Below are positions 29,548 to 37,554 of a stretch of DNA of 38,787 bases, in pieces. Below the pieces are notes generated by a model. It did no database searches. It had not been told where the DNA came from and worked only from the letters and a program-made list of their open reading frames with translations. The position numbers and the translations under genes were made by a program. The stretch covers positions 1 to 38,787 of the IMG/VR virus record IMGVR_UViG_3300028590_000050; one strand, 5' to 3'. Source of the DNA: a virus. Within the stretch, counting starts at the first letter, position 1; every line of letters begins with the position of its first letter.

Positions 29548-31776
29548 ATGCAGAAGTACCAGAACAATATTGCGGCACGCAACGGCGATGCGGTGGTTGG
29601 CATCAAGGTGCTGATCAAGCTCGCGGGGACTGCTACTCCTGCAACGATCTACTCGGATGATGGCGTCAACGTTACGCCGAATCCGCTGACGACGAACGCG
29701 AACGGCTACTTTGAGTTCTACGTCGCCAACGGCTTGTATGACATCGCCGTGAGCGGCGTGAACACATACACAGACGTTCTGATTGCTGACGCGCTGGGAA
29801 TCGATGCCGATGCCCTGAAGAAAACCGAGGCCGCCGCTACTGACGGCGCAACCAAGGTCGGCACCCCTGAAGGCACGGTGCAGGATGCGCTGGATGGGCG
29901 GCCGACCGCCACCACGCTGGCGCTGCCATCTGCCGCTGCGGAGTTGGGCGCCCAATCGGCAGATGCAGGATCGGTCCCGATGTCGGTGCAGGACGCGCTG
30001 GACTTGGCAACGGTTGATCTGCTTAGCAAGATTCCGAAATCAGAGTGGGCGACCATCGCGAGCCGCACAAGCGCCTACGACTGCACCGCAGCCCTCGTTG
30101 CTGCAGTGGCCACCGGCAAGCGCGTGACGGTCTCAATGCCTGGGCGCTACAAGCTCACGACCGCTTATGCGGGAACCACAGATTTCGACGTAGAGGCCCT
30201 GTGTGAGGGCGTCGAGTTCGACCTATCTGGCATCGCCTCCGGAACCTGCATCGGCAATTCCGGCAGCCTCACGCGGATCGCAGACGTGAACGGCGGCTTT
30301 ACGATCAATCAAGGGCGGAACCTTGTCACGCTGGCGTCAGCTCCAGCCGTGGCGTCTGGCGACTGGATTTGCATCTACAACCCAACTGACTACAGCTACT
30401 CGGGCTGGCGCAACTACTACCGTGCAGGCGAGTGGAAACAGGTGCTTTCGGTGTCGGGCAACAACATCACGACGACGGAACCGTTTTACGCCAGCTACGC
30501 AGCGGCTGATGTGCAGGTTTACCGAATGAACTCCGTTCGTTGCCGGTTGGCGAATGTTCGCTTGCTGGGTGGGTCTGGCAACAAGCAACTTGTAATCTTC
30601 TCTCAGGTCGATGGCGCGATTTTCGACCGAGTCACTTCGGAAGGCGCAAACTATTCCGGGTACGGCTTTGACAGGTGCGTTCGGGGTGTTGTTTACGACC
30701 CTCAGGTGCGCAACATCGGCGCAGGATTCGATGACTATGGGATCGTTGCCGGCAACAGCCAACACATCAAGACCCATCGCGGCAGCATTTACGGGCGCCG
30801 CCACGCGGTGGCGCAAGGTGGCCTGGATGCGGTCTGCAGCGTGCCATGTCGAGACATCCGTACCTACGACGCCATCCTGCGCAACGATCCCGAACAAAAC
30901 GTGGGCGCGGCGGACTTCCACGGGAACGTCGAAGAGAGCAGCTTCGAGCGCTGCACTATCTACGGCGGGGTGAAGTTCGGCGGCGGAGACAACAACTTTT
31001 GCGTTGATTGCACGGTATATGCGCCTGGCGGCGAGGTGCAGGCGAATGCCATCGGCTGGGTTGCCTACTGGGCCGAGGTGAAGGGCGGTCGCAGCGGATT
31101 TCGAAACAGCCGCCTGTTCACCACGCGCGATCCTCAGCCGAGCAACCAAGGAATTCTGAGCATCAATGGCACTGGCGCATCCGGCGTCGATTCTCGTACC
31201 GTCTTGCCCTTCATCCCGATGGTGAAAGATTGCTCTCTCTATGCCCGAGGCATGTCGTCGGCAACGCGCATTCTCCTGTTCATCAACCGGGGTGCGACCG
31301 TCGAGTTCAATCCCGAGATCGATGGCTTGCGTCTGGATGTGGATGCCTTGAGCAGCATCCTCTACACCTCGCAAGCAAGCGGAACGGCAGCTTCGAGCGG
31401 GATCATCGTAGACCGCATATTTGGAGCGCCGACAGGGGCCTTGCTGCACAACGCAGGCGGCACGACCTATCGAGACTTCAAACATCGACTCCAAAAGCAA
31501 GACGGTGTTTGGCAGGGAACCAGCGTGGTCAACACGGTTGTGTCTGCATCTCCAATCACGTTCCCTCTCGCGTACCCCAGAAACCCGCGTGCTTCATTGG
31601 CTCTCTCTGGAGCCGGTGGGGCCAGTTTCGCCGGGCAGATCGGCGCGCAGACGCCGCAGATGAGTCTGCTCACACTGACAAATGCAGCCATTCGTCCGCA
31701 GATCAGGACGGCAGCAAACATGACCGCAGGCGATGTGTTCGATGTTTCTTGGTCAGTGGACCTGCGCGAATGTTGA
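29548..31776 (+). CDS. Tailspike, right-handed beta-helix
   Basis: 742 residues. The N-terminal 90 residues form a probable virion-binding domain (VLIKLAGTATPATIYSDDGV, then NANGYFEFYVANGLYDIAVS), with the same LAGT-x-TPA pattern as the tail fibre at 1442. A helical linker with repeated VQDALD (GTVQDALDG and SVQDALDLA) leads to a beta-helix body: many short turns such as DFHGNVEESSFERCTIYGGV and VRGVVYDPQVRNIGAGFDDY, the pattern of pectate-lyase-like spikes that bind or cut surface polysaccharide. C-terminal part: MTAGDVFDVSWSVDLREC. Flanked by intrinsic terminators, so it may be an exchanged cassette. Confidence 0.85.
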   Translation: MQKYQNNIAARNGDAVVGIKVLIKLAGTATPATIYSDDGVNVTPNPLTTNANGYFEFYVANGLYDIAVSGVNTYTDVLIADALGIDADALKKTEAAATDGATKVGTPEGTVQDALDGRPTATTLALPSAAAELGAQSADAGSVPMSVQDALDLATVDLLSKIPKSEWATIASRTSAYDCTAALVAAVATGKRVTVSMPGRYKLTTAYAGTTDFDVEALCEGVEFDLSGIASGTCIGNSGSLTRIADVNGGFTINQGRNLVTLASAPAVASGDWICIYNPTDYSYSGWRNYYRAGEWKQVLSVSGNNITTTEPFYASYAAADVQVYRMNSVRCRLANVRLLGGSGNKQLVIFSQVDGAIFDRVTSEGANYSGYGFDRCVRGVVYDPQVRNIGAGFDDYGIVAGNSQHIKTHRGSIYGRRHAVAQGGLDAVCSVPCRDIRTYDAILRNDPEQNVGAADFHGNVEESSFERCTIYGGVKFGGGDNNFCVDCTVYAPGGEVQANAIGWVAYWAEVKGGRSGFRNSRLFTTRDPQPSNQGILSINGTGASGVDSRTVLPFIPMVKDCSLYARGMSSATRILLFINRGATVEFNPEIDGLRLDVDALSSILYTSQASGTAASSGIIVDRIFGAPTGALLHNAGGTTYRDFKHRLQKQDGVWQGTSVVNTVVSASPITFPLAYPRNPRASLALSGAGGASFAGQIGAQTPQMSLLTLTNAAIRPQIRTAANMTAGDVFDVSWSVDLREC

Positions 31777-31834: not shown

Positions 31835-32545
31835 ATGACCATCGTCATTGATGCCAGCTTGGACTGGTCGCTGACCACGATCAAAGTCATCCAGGGTGCT
31901 CTACAGCTCTGCCAATCCATCGGCGTCGGCGAGAAGGTGGAAGACGAAGACGCGGACCTGTGCCTTGACGCACTGAACGGCGTCATCAAAGAGCTTCCGA
32001 GCTACGGCTTCCAGTGGCCGCGCATCTCGAGCAACCCGGTTGCGATCACGTGGACCATCGGCACGCCCAGCATCGTTACGCCGCCGACCGACTACTTCGG
32101 CGTGCCGCTGCTGAAGTTCACTGATTCCTCTGGCTCCCTGCGTCCTCTGAAGCAGGTTCCCAAAGCCATCTGGGAGGCCTACGACCTTACAAAGACTGCC
32201 GACTACCCCGAGGTGTTCTACGTCTCGCCTGATCTGAGCTTTCACCTGTACCCGGCGCCGACGCAAGAGCCTGGCCTGATGCTGAGCTATCAATCGATCC
32301 TGCCGGATGTGATCTTGGCTGGAACGACGAACATCCAGCAGCAGTTCGTCAACAGCTTGCAGTACTTCCTTGCCGATGAGATCTCACTGAAGTACGGCGT
32401 GGACCAGACGATCCGCGCTGAGATTTCAGCCCGCGCCGCACAGAAGAAGTTCCTGATGCTGCAATGGGCGACCGACCAGGCGCCGATCAGCTTCACGGTC
32501 GATGACTGCGCCTATCCTCGTTCGGGGCCGCTGGAATGGCGATAA
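31835..32545 (+). CDS. Head completion adaptor, P22 gp4-like
   Basis: 236 residues. IKVIQGALQLCQSIGVGEKV, then DADLCLDALNGVIKELPSYG and FQWPRIS, correspond to the helical start of the P22 gp4 tail-accessory family, which binds below the portal and prevents leakage of DNA. The C-terminal helix YFLADEISLKYGVDQTIRAE also agrees. Directly followed, with a 10-nt overlap, by the gp10-like gene, as in P22-type heads. Confidence 0.85.
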   Translation: MTIVIDASLDWSLTTIKVIQGALQLCQSIGVGEKVEDEDADLCLDALNGVIKELPSYGFQWPRISSNPVAITWTIGTPSIVTPPTDYFGVPLLKFTDSSGSLRPLKQVPKAIWEAYDLTKTADYPEVFYVSPDLSFHLYPAPTQEPGLMLSYQSILPDVILAGTTNIQQQFVNSLQYFLADEISLKYGVDQTIRAEISARAAQKKFLMLQWATDQAPISFTVDDCAYPRSGPLEWR

Positions 32546-33936
32546 GGCCCGTACCCCTCTTCGGGCTTGGCAACTTCGGCAAGTCGTACAACGTCGATGC
32601 GCAGAAGCGCACGAACCTGTATGCCGAAATCCAAAAGGACGGGGAGAAGGGCACTCTGACGCTGTACCCGACGCCGGGACTGACGACCTTCGTCAACTTC
32701 GGTGCTTATGCGAGCCGAGGCGCCTGGAAGAAAGACGACGTTCTCTACATCGTCAACCGCTTCACGCTGTGGCGCGTGACGAATGATGGGGCGATGACCA
32801 ACATCGGCACGTTGCTCACGTCTGCCGGTCGGGTGGACATGTCGGACAACGGCACGCAGATCATCATCGTGGACGGCCCGAACGGGTACATCTACGACAC
32901 GGGTACTTCGACGTTCGCGCAGATCACCGACCCGGATTTTCCGGGTGCAGACACGGTGACGTTCCTGAACCAGTACTTCATCGTTCAGAAACCAGACTCT
33001 GGCCGCTTCTATGTGTCGGCTCCCCTCGATGGTCTGACTGGCTGGACCTCTCTGGACTTCGCGACGGCGGAGTCGAATCCTGACAACCTGATTCGAGTGG
33101 TGGCCGACAACGGACAGATCCTGCTTTTTGGCAGCGAGACGACAGAGTTCTGGAGCGATTCGGGAGCGTTGGACTTCCCGTTTGCGCGCGTAGGTGCTGC
33201 CGCGATTGAATGGGGCCTTGCTGCGCGCTGGTCGCTGTGCAAGTTCATGGACTCGATGATCTTCTTGCGCAAGAACCGCCTGGGTGCTGTGCAGGTTTGC
33301 ACGCTGTCCGGCTACAGCGCAGTGCCTGTGTCGAATCCTGAGATGGATTACATCTTCAGCCAGTATGAAGGCGTGTCGAATGCGACTGCCTTTGCCTACA
33401 TGGTCAGTGGGCATCCGTTCTACCAGATCAGTTTCCCCTCGGCCAATGAGTCGTGGGTGTTCGACGGTCTTAGCCGTGAGTGGCATCGTGCCGAGTCGGC
33501 AGGTGGGCGCCACCGTGGCGAGATCCAGATCAACTTCCTGGATAGCTCGTATGTCACCGACCACGAGAACGGCAAGCTGTACCGCTTTGAAGACGGCATC
33601 TTTACCGATGACGGCCAGGCCATCGCCCGTGAGCTCGTGTCACGCCACCAATCGACAGGCGAATACACGTTCTTGTCGAAGCTCTGGATCGAGATGGAGG
33701 GCGGTGTTGGTTTGCTGACCGGGCAGGGATCGCAGCCGAAGCTGATGCTGCAGTACAGCAAGGATGGCGGTCACACGTGGTCTGAAGAGGTTTGGCGCGA
33801 CATTGGCGCAATGGGCCAGTTCAAGTGCCGCTCACTGTTCCTGCGTCTTGGCCGTGGCCGCGACTGGGTGTTTCGCCTGCGCGTGACCGACCCAGTGAAG
33901 ACGGTGTTTATCGGCGCGTGGGCGGAGTTCAACTGA
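32536..33936 (+). CDS. Packaged-DNA stabilisation protein, P22 gp10-like
   Basis: 466 residues. The N-terminus (NVDAQKRTNLYAEIQKDGEK) and the series of beta-propeller-like strands (GRVDMSDNGTQIIIVDGPNG, then YIYDTGTSTFAQITDPDFPG) are those of the gp10/P22 tail hub family. Later GNGQILLFGSETTEFW-like (DNGQILLFGSETTEFWSDSG) and WSEEVWRDIGAMGQFKCRSL also fit. It forms the ring between gp4-like adaptor and tail needle, and tailspikes attach to it. Confidence 0.9.
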   Translation: MAIRPVPLFGLGNFGKSYNVDAQKRTNLYAEIQKDGEKGTLTLYPTPGLTTFVNFGAYASRGAWKKDDVLYIVNRFTLWRVTNDGAMTNIGTLLTSAGRVDMSDNGTQIIIVDGPNGYIYDTGTSTFAQITDPDFPGADTVTFLNQYFIVQKPDSGRFYVSAPLDGLTGWTSLDFATAESNPDNLIRVVADNGQILLFGSETTEFWSDSGALDFPFARVGAAAIEWGLAARWSLCKFMDSMIFLRKNRLGAVQVCTLSGYSAVPVSNPEMDYIFSQYEGVSNATAFAYMVSGHPFYQISFPSANESWVFDGLSREWHRAESAGGRHRGEIQINFLDSSYVTDHENGKLYRFEDGIFTDDGQAIARELVSRHQSTGEYTFLSKLWIEMEGGVGLLTGQGSQPKLMLQYSKDGGHTWSEEVWRDIGAMGQFKCRSLFLRLGRGRDWVFRLRVTDPVKTVFIGAWAEFN

Positions 33937-34187
33937 TGAACGCCTACGACATACCCAGCGGCCAGCCGTTTGATTCTGGCAGCAACTGGATGCCTGCATG
34001 GGCTCAGTGGCTCACGCGCACGCACAGAGCTGCACTGTCGGTACAGCAGAGCGGGCCCACAGCAGAGCGCCCCACATCGCTCCTGTGGGTTGGCCGTTTC
34101 TACTACGACGAAGACCTAGGCCATCCTGTGTGGCTGCACTCGATCAACCCGATTGTTTGGCACGACGCCACGGGAACCCCAGCATGA
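33936..34187 (+). CDS. Conserved structural-region protein (83 aa)
   Basis: 83 residues, one-base overlap with gp10-like. Sequence is Trp-rich (SNWMPAWAQWLTRTHRAALS, then TSLLWVGRFYYDEDLGHPVW). Conserved small proteins of this kind occur in phage tail regions, with no known role. Confidence 0.7.
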   Translation: MNAYDIPSGQPFDSGSNWMPAWAQWLTRTHRAALSVQQSGPTAERPTSLLWVGRFYYDEDLGHPVWLHSINPIVWHDATGTPA

Positions 34188-34528
34188 ATATCTCTCACCA
34201 CTTTGGCGGCGGCGTGTATGCCAAAGAGACGCACGTCAAGGCCGGGCAAATCTTGGTGCAGCACAAGCACGAGCATGCACACCTCTCGGTGCTGGCGAGT
34301 GGCGCTGTGGAGGTTCTGGTTGAAGGTGCTCGGTCCATCATCAACGGCCCCGCCTGCCTGACCATCGAGGCCGGGAAGCACCACGGAATCCGCGCCTTGA
34401 CCGATGCTGTTTGGTACTGCATCCATGCAACCGAATGCACCGACTCGGAACAAGTAGACGAGGTACTGATCGCAGACGACAGCAACATGGGCGACATGCA
34501 GGCGATGGTTGGGGAGTTGGCATCTTGA
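34184..34528 (+). CDS. Cupin-domain protein (114 aa)
   Basis: 114 residues forming a single cupin barrel. The metal-binding motif is HKHEHAHLSVLASGAVEVLV (from residue 27), with His27, His29, His31 and His33 as likely ligands; a second motif (GPACLTIEAGKHHGIRALTD) supplies His residues near 66-67. Cupins bind a metal ion and act as enzymes or as sensors. It is coupled to the oxygenase-like gene that follows, suggesting that the two act together, for instance on a virion protein or host sugar. That is inference. Confidence 0.8.
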   Translation: MNISHHFGGGVYAKETHVKAGQILVQHKHEHAHLSVLASGAVEVLVEGARSIINGPACLTIEAGKHHGIRALTDAVWYCIHATECTDSEQVDEVLIADDSNMGDMQAMVGELAS

Positions 34529-35067
34529 TCCCCATCAAGCTTCTGTGGAGCGGCCTTGACGTCCGCCCGATGCAGGCCGCGCTTGAGGTGCACCCCGAGC
34601 TGTGGGACCAACGCAAGGAGAGGACGAACCCCGAGGATTCGCCGCACCATGGGCTGTCTGACATCTGGGCACGGTTTGCTGAGCCTTCGACCATGCAGCC
34701 AGACGGCTCGCACGATTCAGTCTGGTATCCGCCTGCTGACGCACTGCCGGTGCGGGAGATCGTTTTTCCGCTCATGGCCGCAGTGCAAGGAGAGCGGCTA
34801 GGCGGGGTGTTGATCACCCGCATTCGCCCCGGGCAAGTCTGCAAGCCGCATACGGACCCAGGTTGGCACGCGCGCTATTACCAGAAGTTTGCGGTGCAGA
34901 TCGCGGCTGCACCTGGACAAGCTTTTCATTTCGAGGGCCACGAGCTTGTGACGAAGCCGGGCGACATTTTCTGGTTCGACAACTCGCACACCCATTGGGT
35001 GACGAACGAGAGCGACACCGACCGAATCACGCTGATCGTCTGCATCAAGACGGATAAGGAGTACTGA
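34525..35067 (+). CDS. Aspartyl/asparaginyl beta-hydroxylase-like 2OG-Fe(II) oxygenase
   Basis: 180 residues from a TTG start overlapping the cupin stop, with GGGGAG eight bases upstream. The iron-binding triad of the Asp/Asn beta-hydroxylase fold is visible: KPHTDPGWHARYYQKFAVQI with His109 and Asp111, then GDIFWFDNSHTHWVTNESDT with His157. Arg167 in DRITLIVCIK would bind 2-oxoglutarate. The phrase FDN-x(4)-HWVTN-x-S is close to the family's known motif. It would hydroxylate a protein side chain or another small target using oxygen and 2-oxoglutarate. Its place inside the virion operon suggests a structural protein as substrate, which is inference. Confidence 0.85.
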   Translation: MIPIKLLWSGLDVRPMQAALEVHPELWDQRKERTNPEDSPHHGLSDIWARFAEPSTMQPDGSHDSVWYPPADALPVREIVFPLMAAVQGERLGGVLITRIRPGQVCKPHTDPGWHARYYQKFAVQIAAAPGQAFHFEGHELVTKPGDIFWFDNSHTHWVTNESDTDRITLIVCIKTDKEY

Positions 35068-35068
35068 T

Positions 35069-36307
35069 ATGCCATGGGGTGCAGCAGCAGCAATCGGAGG
35101 CGCATTGATCACCTCCAGCGCAGCCGGTGATGCGGCAGACGCGCAATCCGATGCTTCGAGAGAATCGACGCAGCTACAGATGATGATGGCCGCGCAGCAG
35201 CGGCAGGATCTTGAACCCTGGGTCAAAGCCGGGGGCAGTGCGCAGAACCTCCTGAGCCGGTATCTCGGCACGGGCGGAGTGGGGTCGAGTGGCGTCACGT
35301 CAATGGGCCTTGCAACGGGCCTCACGCCAGACCAGGTGCGCACTCAGTTGCTCAGCCGCTTTACCCGGCAATCCGCCGCGCCGAATGCGGGGCCGATGTA
35401 TCGCACGGGCCAAGAAGCTATCGACGCTTTGGGCGCGCAGGGCGCTCACGACTACTTCCAGCAGCAAGCCCAGAACAACAATGGCTCGTGGACTCAGCCG
35501 GGGACCGGCCCGGGCTATTGGGGGAATGAAGTTGGCGCCACTGGTTCTCGCGAGTGGGTGTCCACGGCTGGCGGAAATGCCGGCCCCTCCTCCACCATTG
35601 ACGAAGAAGGCCTGAACGCCGAGATCGCCAAGTACTACGAGGAACAGAGAGCGCAGAACGATGCGGCTGCCAAGGATCCGACCTACGGCTCTCTTCTCCG
35701 CCCGTACCGCAACGGCGAAGAGTTCAGTTTCACCGGCAAAGACCTGCTGACCGACCCCGGCTACAAGTTCGGCCTTGACCAGGGTACGAAGGGCATTGAG
35801 CGCGGACAAACATCGCGCGGCAACTTCCTCTCTGGTGGCGCCATGAAGGAGCTTGCTCGTTACAACGAGGACTATGCAGGGACGAAGTTCAATGAGGGCT
35901 TCGGTCGCGCACAGAGCACTTGGAACACCAACCTCAACGCCTACGACAGCAACCGCAACACGATCTACAACTTCCTGACGGGGCAAAGCACGCTCGGCCA
36001 GAACGCTGCAGCGCGCGTCGGCGCAGGGTCGCAGCAAGCCGCCAATGCCGCTGGGCAGAACATCGCGGCAGCGGGAAATGCGAACTCGGCGGCAAGCATC
36101 GTTGGCGGCAACGCGCTCACCTCTGGCCTCAACTCGCTGGCGAACACGATGCGCAGCAACAGCAACACCAACGGCGCAGCCGGGTGGAATAGCCTGATCT
36201 CGTCGGGCGCGACGCCATACGGTGCGAGCTCTACAAGCCTGAGCGGCCCAACTGGGTGGAATCCATCGACAAACGTATTTGCCGGAACGAATGGGAGTTT
36301 CAACTGA
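35069..36307 (+). CDS. DNA-ejection / internal virion protein (412 aa)
   Basis: 412 residues starting MPWGAAAAIGGALITSSAAG, a hydrophobic N-terminus seen in phage ejection proteins, followed by a helical DAQSDASRESTQLQMMMAAQ region. The middle has TDPGYKFGLDQGTKGIERGQ and GNFLSGGAMKELARYNEDYA, phrases typical of the DNA-transfer protein of short-tailed phages. C-terminal part is Asn/Ala/Ser-rich (QQAANAAGQNIAAAGNANSA). It probably leaves the virion with the DNA and helps form the trans-envelope channel. Next in a three-gene ejection set. Confidence 0.8.
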   Translation: MPWGAAAAIGGALITSSAAGDAADAQSDASRESTQLQMMMAAQQRQDLEPWVKAGGSAQNLLSRYLGTGGVGSSGVTSMGLATGLTPDQVRTQLLSRFTRQSAAPNAGPMYRTGQEAIDALGAQGAHDYFQQQAQNNNGSWTQPGTGPGYWGNEVGATGSREWVSTAGGNAGPSSTIDEEGLNAEIAKYYEEQRAQNDAAAKDPTYGSLLRPYRNGEEFSFTGKDLLTDPGYKFGLDQGTKGIERGQTSRGNFLSGGAMKELARYNEDYAGTKFNEGFGRAQSTWNTNLNAYDSNRNTIYNFLTGQSTLGQNAAARVGAGSQQAANAAGQNIAAAGNANSAASIVGGNALTSGLNSLANTMRSNSNTNGAAGWNSLISSGATPYGASSTSLSGPTGWNPSTNVFAGTNGSFN

Positions 36308-37554
36308 TGGCACTCGATCCTTCAATCATCTTGCAGGCCGGCAGAGGTGTGACGCCGTTAATGTCGAACGCCGAGATCGAGGGCCAACAAGCCGAGCGCG
36401 AAATGCGGAGCATGCAACTTCAGCAGTCTCGACAGGGAATGCAAGATGCAGCAGAACAGCGCCGAATCGCTCAGGGCACCGCTCCCGAAGGACTGGCGAG
36501 CGCGTACTACAAGGCTGGGCTCGTTCCTCAAGCTCAGGCCGCGCAGAAGTTCCAGACGGAACAGCAGAAGGCCGAACGTGAATCGCTGAAGGCAAAACTC
36601 GACGCCGGCATCAAGCAATTCGAGGCTATCGGCCAAATCATGAGCGGCGTGCGCGACCAAGCGACGTATGACATGGCCCGACAGCAAGTAGGCGGCATCG
36701 TCGGCCCCGAGGCAATGGCGAACATCCCCGCCATCTATGACCCAGCAGCGGTTGCCAGGAACCAACAGCAGGCCATGTCGGTGAAAGACCGGATGGAGCA
36801 GGAGCGAAAGCGGTACGAATTCGACAACCCAAGTGCCAATTCTTTGCTGCAGGCACGTACTTCGCAGGCCAACAATGCAGCCACGATTGCCAACTCTCAG
36901 CGCACAGCAGATATGACCGATTCTCGTGCGCGCGACTTCAATGCGACGAAGGCTGAGGAAAACAAGTTGAAGCGCGAGGCCCAAGGTACAGGCGTGAAGT
37001 TGACTGAAGACCAGGGCAAAGCGACCGGTTGGCTCGTGCAGGCTGAGAACGCTTTCAAGAACATGCAGGCGGCTGGTTTCGACCGCGAAGGCAATCCGAC
37101 CGATGCAGCAAAACCGGGGTACGCCGACGCAATCGCTGGCGTGCCTTTGGTAGGTGGCGCGGTAGGGAATTGGCTTCGCACCCCTGACCGGCAGAAGTTC
37201 GTGCAAGGCGCTTCATCGCTGAGCGAATCGTTGCTTCGGGCTGCTACTGGTGCTGGCGTGAACAAGGACGAAGCCAAGCAGAAGATCGAGGAGCTCACCC
37301 CGCAATGGGGCGAAGACATCGAGACGACCAAGCAGAAGATGGCGGCAATACCTCTGTATATCGAATCGCTCAAGGTCCGGGCTGGGCCTGGCGCTCCAAA
37401 GGCGCAAGAGATCAGCGCAAACCCGTCTAAGCCCGTTGGCGTACCGAAGTTCAAGCCGGGAGGGATCACGGTGACAAACGCAGAGGACTACGCCAAGGTT
37501 CCTTCTGGTGCGACATTCACCACGCCGGATGGCAAGACGCGGAGGAAGCCGTAA
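36307..37554 (+). CDS. DNA-ejection protein, P22 gp20-like (415 aa)
   Basis: 415 residues from the ATG overlapping the previous stop by one base (the longer frame runs into the previous gene). Long Gln/Ala/Glu-rich helices (EREMRSMQLQQSRQGMQDAA, then LKAKLDAGIKQFEAIGQIMS) and a globular C-terminal part (AIAGVPLVGGAVGNWLRTPD, then GASSLSESLLRAATGAGVNK). Composition and position match the second ejection protein of P22-like phages. The stop overlaps the transglycosylase start as TAATG. Confidence 0.78.
   Translation: MALDPSIILQAGRGVTPLMSNAEIEGQQAEREMRSMQLQQSRQGMQDAAEQRRIAQGTAPEGLASAYYKAGLVPQAQAAQKFQTEQQKAERESLKAKLDAGIKQFEAIGQIMSGVRDQATYDMARQQVGGIVGPEAMANIPAIYDPAAVARNQQQAMSVKDRMEQERKRYEFDNPSANSLLQARTSQANNAATIANSQRTADMTDSRARDFNATKAEENKLKREAQGTGVKLTEDQGKATGWLVQAENAFKNMQAAGFDREGNPTDAAKPGYADAIAGVPLVGGAVGNWLRTPDRQKFVQGASSLSESLLRAATGAGVNKDEAKQKIEELTPQWGEDIETTKQKMAAIPLYIESLKVRAGPGAPKAQEISANPSKPVGVPKFKPGGITVTNAEDYAKVPSGATFTTPDGKTRRKP

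Follow-up and report, generated by a model that had tools for sequence, protein, structure and literature searches.

Oxygenase and cupin genes beside a phage DNA-ejection gene are associated with proline at residue 2 of the ejection protein, a predicted site of N-terminal modification

Gene content of the locus

The window (the whole stretch of DNA analysed here, 38,787 bases) is an IMG/VR virus record. Megablast against phage records gave no close match to it, and close relatives of the locus in a scan of bacterial genomes have Variovorax and Ramlibacter as hosts, which suggests a member of the Comamonadaceae as host of the window phage. Loci L191-L195 come from Variovorax strains bearing the cassette. 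The genes considered here, referred to below by the names in parentheses, are arranged as follows:

32536..33936, + strand: gp10-like head-closure/tail hub protein (Hc3; phrog_578, E 4.9e-106)
33936..34187, + strand: 83-aa structural protein whose C-terminus has a tail-fibre-type motif (phrog_20787, 6.5e-8; phrog_33406, 0.006)
34184..34528, + strand: cupin of 114 aa with an intact four-His site
34262-34264, 34268-34270, 34280-34282 and 34382-34384, + strand: codons of cupin H27, H29, H33 and H67, respectively
34418-34420, + strand: codon of cupin C79, also conserved
34525..35067, + strand: Fe(II)/2-oxoglutarate (2OG) oxygenase (PF05118) of 180 aa
34849-34851, 34855-34857, 34993-34995 and 35023-35025, + strand: codons of oxygenase H109, D111, H157 and R167, respectively
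35069..36307, + strand: gp14/P22 gp7-like DNA-ejection protein (ejA; phrog_598, 1.5e-19, and synteny), the predicted substrate
35072..35074, + strand: CCA codon of ejA Pro2, the predicted modified residue (N-terminal once Met is removed)
36307..37554, + strand: second ejection-type protein in the gp20/gp15 position (open reading frame, position and homologues in relatives)

The order is therefore Hc3, 83-aa structural gene, cupin, oxygenase and ejA. The PHROG labels matched by the 83-aa product are ‘virion structural protein’ (phrog_20787) and ‘tail fiber C-terminus’ (phrog_33406). The oxygenase starts with a TTG codon that overlaps the cupin stop and has a GGAG ribosome-binding site, the two genes being translationally coupled; this choice of start is backed by aligned ATG, TTG and GTG starts among homologues. 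The ejA gene, with an AAGGAG ribosome-binding site, begins Met-Pro-Trp-Gly, and its membership in the gp14/P22 gp7-like group rests on the profile match and on its place before two larger ejection genes. The likely start of the 36307..37554 reading frame is MALDPS, and a longer, GTG-started version is also in the list of open reading frames. The order of the ejection operon in the window agrees with that described previously (PMC8954989).

A first-pass annotation had placed two metalloprotein genes at 34184-35067, between a gp10-like tail hub and the ejection proteins. Both genes are real, their coordinates are exact and their flanking genes are as described.

Identity of the cupin and the oxygenase

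Against PF07883 (Cupin_2), the cupin scores 23.3 bits, below the cut-off of 27.2. Its structural model (pLDDT 95.1) matches RmlC-like cupins in the PDB, and the beta-barrel fold and two His-containing motifs of the cupin superfamily are present. The His-rich site noted in the first-pass annotation is conserved in oxygenase-linked cupins, with H29, H33 and H67 in 46 of 46 and H27 in 45, the remaining one having a gap. Values of dN/dS between 0.06 and 0.33 indicate purifying selection, with dS close to saturation.

The cupin also matches profiles named ‘short tail fiber / tail fiber adhesin’ (PHROG 12032, 5.4e-18; PHROG 24280, 3.1e-18). Phage cupins carrying these names (PHROG 12032 and 24280; PHA00672) are recognisably homologous to the window cupin and occupy the same slot before the ejection gene, but those in named phages have K/R/A27...R67 or other non-His sites and are followed by ejA proteins with Ser, Thr or Ala at residue 2, whereas the window cupin has four His plus Cys79. 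For one such relative, in Ralstonia phage phiAP1, the label has been noted as being without validation (PMC8703784). In the cupins that we term degenerate (L005, L108 and L425-L432), K/R/A27, H29, H33, R67 and T79 recur, and ejA residue 2 is Ser, Thr or Ala; this recurrence is not that of random decay, and these cupins may carry a different active or binding site.

The oxygenase scores 37.3 bits against PF05118 (Asp_Arg_Hydrox), above the cut-off of 22.6. The complete HxD...H...R set that had been read from its sequence holds across the family: H109, D111 and H157 are kept in 93 of 93 clusters and R167 in 92, with one gap, which gives the HxD...H facial triad and the Arg for 2OG that characterise Fe(II)/2OG oxygenases. 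Its AlphaFold2 model (pLDDT 96.6) is a compact single domain of 180 aa, and dN/dS (0.06-0.16, with dS close to saturation) again indicates purifying selection.

AspH, the aspartate/asparagine hydroxylase, has a two-His iron site in which the Asp ligand is replaced by Gly, a TPR domain, and EGF-like domains as substrates. It shares with the phage oxygenase the Pfam family PF05118, above cut-off, and a fold match (TM 0.6; 6yyy, 5apa), but the phage protein has an invariant HxD and lacks the TPR domain. Identity with AspH was rejected on the invariance of D111 and the 180-aa single-domain architecture. In the same fold search, the first solved 2OG-oxygenase match was L-proline cis-4-hydroxylase, a remote one (TM 0.68, 15% identity), and in a profile search proline 3-hydroxylase (1e5r) reached E 0.026 against 0.85 for AspH. 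The Asp/Asn hydroxylation first proposed for this gene thus comes down to a family name, since the HxD site is unlike that of AspH and the nearest 2OG matches are proline hydroxylases. With the latter (4p7w, 4p7x, 1e5r), the phage oxygenase has in common the double-stranded beta-helix fold and HxD...H...R; it differs in its sequence (~15% identity), its shorter length (180 aa) and its position adjoining an ejection gene. Known L-proline cis-4- and proline 3-hydroxylases act on free proline, which has a free amine. We know of no enzyme that has been shown to hydroxylate an N-terminal proline.

Gene neighbourhoods in related phages

IMG/VR and bacterial genomes were scanned, which gave more than 300 loci containing at least one of the genes. 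The oxygenases formed 94 clusters at 90% identity; the pooling of three queries biases this sample. A cupin adjoins the oxygenase in 45 of these clusters, a ~165-aa sulfotransferase-like gene in 30 and a 62-aa gene in nine; both the cupin and the sulfotransferase-like gene are found on either side of the oxygenase. Oxygenase-based queries alone gave 67 non-redundant clusters, 45 of them with an adjoining cupin, and ejA lies at most 1.6 kb downstream of the oxygenase in all 60 that have at least 1.6 kb of right flank, usually after a gap of 5-6 bases. With the cupin as query, ejA was directly next in 66 of 77 loci and the oxygenase directly downstream of the cupin in seven of 77. The Hc3-based locus scan used a narrower alignment (A8), and a single Hc3 protein query gave three loci.

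These neighbourhoods bear on two expectations of the first-pass annotation. Enzymes had been called unexpected at this position, yet a cupin in the slot before the ejection gene is common in podophages. A survey of the co-occurrence of the two genes had also been proposed: they do adjoin in 45 of 94 clusters, but each gene is also common in phages that lack the other, and the pairing is thus not an obligatory one. By the criterion given in the annotation, linkage of the two genes in relatives, the strict pair hypothesis therefore fails while the modification hypothesis survives.

Several other proteins recur beside these genes. In 33 of 63 clusters, the immediate neighbour of the oxygenase, on one side or the other, is a sulfotransferase-like protein (~165 aa; PHROG 10855, ‘hydrolase’) that carries a PRSGTxW loop, examples among L200-L279 and others being L162:4534-5004, L182:4501-5004 and L272:4998-5486. 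Against the curated Pfam cut-off of 27.0, L162 scores 27.6 bits and the others fall below; the PRS..W of the PAPS-binding-type loop is invariant in seven aligned members, and comparison with sequences of solved structures gave chance-level matches only. When this family was the sole query, 32 of the 80 loci retrieved had an oxygenase next to it. The ~62-aa protein (AWDxYFASVxSMSLHPGTTRD; L020:5804-5992, L025:5801-5992, L026:5816-6004, L141:3967-4155, L175:5539-5754) likewise adjoins the oxygenase on either side; it has no Pfam match and at best a marginal PHROG match.

Cupin-SET fusions (PHROG 34170) are found in many freshwater phages (L106:4929-5690, L007:5896-6771, L280-L333), whose cupins have lost the metal site and whose ejA has a Met-Ser start. 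They have the slot, a homologous cupin and a domain of protein-modifying type in common with the window locus, but that domain is a SET methyltransferase and in the window it is an oxygenase. In these phages, ejA is directly next in 42 of 55 loci, and PF00856 scores above cut-off in several. Finally, a GNAT acetyltransferase gene stands beside a more divergent oxygenase (L003:6597-7046, L004:6583-7047; L346, L348, L350, L352, L403), lying 3' of it in PfAn1 and DC33; where an ejA comes next, it starts Met-Val.

Association of residue 2 of ejA with the enzymes

Proline is the second residue of all 36 distinct ejA proteins encoded beside cupin plus oxygenase, of 23 of 24 beside oxygenase plus sulfotransferase-like gene and of 17 of 18 beside the oxygenase only; for both oxygenase-linked exceptions (L171 and L219), the start is uncertain. 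The same residue occurs in 0/39 distinct ejA proteins of SET-fusion phages, 2/23 of those with an empty slot and 1/7 of those with a sulfotransferase-like gene without oxygenase. Among cupin-only phages, Pro2 accompanies the four-His cupin in 53 of 57 and the degenerate cupin in none of 21. When ejA was clustered at 75% identity, Pro2 was present in 64/64 clusters with the core oxygenase, in 17/20 with the four-His cupin only (that is, in all but three) and in 3/56 otherwise; Fisher's test on these clusters gives a P value of 5e-31, in which relatedness is ignored.

A scan of the ejA columns ranked Pro2 best (phi 0.91), followed by W3 (0.69) and then by columns at or below 0.5, the association with the enzymes dropping with distance from the start codon. 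The best of the 466 columns of Hc3 reached phi 0.46. Oxygenase-linked ejA proteins have a median pairwise identity of 28%, and, beyond Met, Pro2 alone is conserved in 100% of them, which argues against neutrality. All four Pro codons occur at this position, residue 3 varies (W/F/I/V/L), and Pro2 is kept in 13 of 13 loci in which other sequence or genes separate the oxygenase from ejA. Across all ejA clusters, residue 2 allows removal of Met in 137 of 140. The ejA of MW202665, which has a core oxygenase, starts MPW. In 14 named phages read separately, some of whose loci overlapped the discovery set, the cupin site is degenerate in all, and ejA residue 2, where readable, is Ser, Thr or Ala and never Pro.

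Shared ancestry was addressed with a tree of ejA from which residues 1-5 had been left out. On this tree, eight supported independent pairs differ in enzyme (median P 0.0078), Pro2 changing in the same way as the enzyme in seven or eight of the eight and almost never in the opposite way. For the oxygenase alone, there are five supported independent pairs (P 0.06). The cupin tree has a single change of the four-His site, and the link between cupin site and Pro2 is accordingly one event that was not counted as independent. Pro2 is absent from all five ejA clusters that accompany the divergent oxygenase type (PfAn1 and relatives, with the GNAT gene), which have Met-Val starts; not every oxygenase in the slot, therefore, can target proline.

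Proposed mechanism

With the genes identified computationally, their metal sites intact, their position beside ejA constant and Pro2 tightly associated with the enzymes, the best explanation in our judgement, and one that we hold with somewhat better than even confidence, is that the oxygenase hydroxylates the N-terminal proline of ejA during virion assembly. Maturation enzymes for ejA would then occupy the slot that separates the tail-hub genes from the ejection operon. Methionine aminopeptidase normally removes Met before Pro, and because residue 2 of ejA allows this removal, the mature N-terminus in the window phage should be proline. We infer the following course: ejA would be made as Met-Pro-Trp..., the host aminopeptidase would cut off Met and expose the proline, and the 2OG oxygenase would add a hydroxyl to it before or during assembly. 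Hydroxylation at this site is proposed because the nearest solved 2OG relatives are proline hydroxylases that use proline with a free amine. The cupin retains four His and a Cys and goes together with Pro2 also where the oxygenase is missing; it therefore probably works at the ejA N-terminus as well, where it might act on, bind or protect the same residue. Since a sulfotransferase-like gene replaces the cupin beside the oxygenase in relatives, the hydroxyl might there be capped further, hydroxylation being followed by sulfation; we offer this as an idea. The modified N-terminus would probably stabilise ejA, or tune how it is packaged or how it inserts into the outer membrane during ejection. 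The first-pass suggestion that a tail, ejection or capsid protein is modified is thereby narrowed, an ejection protein and specifically Pro2 of ejA being the best-supported candidate.

The ejA protein is grouped with T7 gp14 (N-terminus MCWAAAIPIAI) and P22 gp7; gp14-like proteins have predicted transmembrane helices, and in T7 the location is the outer membrane (PMC8954989). T7 also has a small non-ejection gene, gene 13, directly before gp14, and the gp14 start MCWAAA resembles MPWGAA. However, the gene 13 product belongs to PF11090 (‘probable scaffold protein’), and no similarity to the cupin or the oxygenase was detected.

More broadly, the slot could be a widespread N-terminal maturation system of short-tailed phages, with interchangeable enzymes (2OG oxygenase, four-His cupin, sulfotransferase-like protein, cupin-SET fusion, acetyltransferase) each matched to the N-terminal residue of ejA: hydroxylation and perhaps sulfation of Pro, and other marks on Ser, Thr or Val starts. 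This generalisation is tentative, and we consider it possible rather than probable.

Alternative explanations

The enzymes might instead modify another residue or another virion protein (another ejection protein, a fibre or the hub), with Pro2 serving, for instance, Met removal or membrane insertion. Fibre genes do lie upstream in many relatives, and Met can likewise be removed when Ser, Gly, Ala, Thr or Val comes second (the 137 of 140 clusters above), from which it follows that Pro itself need not be the acceptor. Mere Met removal, however, would not make Pro invariant in 64 of 64 oxygenase-linked clusters when other residues suffice elsewhere, and no Hc3 column has a comparable association; we regard another target as unlikely. 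Rather less likely still is that Pro2 is uninformative about the substrate, either because the first codons of ejA recombine together with the upstream cassette or because ATG-CCN-TGG serves translation or coupling. Such hitchhiking would fit the decay of the association from residue 2 to 4 and the different histories of ejA bodies and enzymes (25 enzyme changes on the ejA tree against one four-His change on the cupin tree), but it sits poorly with Pro2 as the sole invariant residue after Met at 28% identity, with the use of all four Pro codons beside a variable residue 3 (W also being F, I, V or L), and with the retention of Pro2 both in the 13 interrupted loci and across three different partner genes.

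Two further readings are improbable in our view. PF05118 includes LpxO, and a late hydroxylase directed at lipid A or lipopolysaccharide, at host proteins or at 2OG metabolism is conceivable on that ground; sulfotransferase-like and cupin folds, moreover, could act on sugars. The DC33 homologue has also been filed as an auxiliary metabolic gene (PMC12195039). Membership in the LpxO lipid A hydroxylases was nevertheless rejected (16.1 bits against the NCBIfam equivalog cut-off of 500), the oxygenase is a compact 180-aa single domain with no obvious membrane segment, and a host-directed role leaves both the fixed place beside ejA and the residue-2 correlation unexplained. Marginally the least probable of all is a purely structural role, in which the cupin would be a tail-fibre or tail-tip component and its neighbours accessory structural proteins. 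It draws on the PHROG 24280 and 12032 matches and on the RefSeq names (‘short tail fiber’, ‘tail fiber adhesin’) in BA3, VPMS1, X14 and VvAW1, but we found no virion proteomics behind these labels in those records or in related papers; furthermore, relatives of the cupin occur in fusion with SET methyltransferase domains that score above the Pfam cut-off, and the metal ligands of the cupin are fully retained beside the oxygenase.

Relation to previous work

The enzyme families themselves are already known; what appears new to us is where they are placed, that their partners are interchangeable and which substrate is predicted. In DC33, the relative of the oxygenase is annotated as an Asp/Asn beta-hydroxylase (PMC12195039), and in cyanophages 2OG oxygenases are common, their functions being described as lacking specific investigation (PMC9602691). 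The open-licence literature yielded no report of N-terminal proline hydroxylation on a phage protein and none of a phage cupin-SET fusion, absences that are weak evidence.

Were hydroxylation of the ejA N-terminus to be confirmed, short-tailed phages would have enzymes dedicated to altering the first residue of a T7 gp14-type outer-membrane-inserting protein, and both the site and the chemistry would be new among phage protein modifications. Many phage genes would thereby lose misleading labels (‘tail fiber adhesin’; ‘Asp/Asn hydroxylase, auxiliary metabolic gene’) in favour of new ones, and the system would provide a rare case of an enzyme and its substrate residue linked across hundreds of viral genomes.

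Additional observations

Inside the virion module of the window, just 5' of the tail adaptor gene, a pectate-lyase-like tailspike (PF22442, phrog_13768) is encoded at 29548-31776. An endonuclease-like reading frame lies between the oxygenase and ejA at L171:4070-4519, on one contig, and is absent from the rest of its group. Limnohabitans phage DC33 (PQ492659.1), a tailed dsDNA phage of 39 kb, has the GenBank lineage Inoviridae, which looks misassigned.
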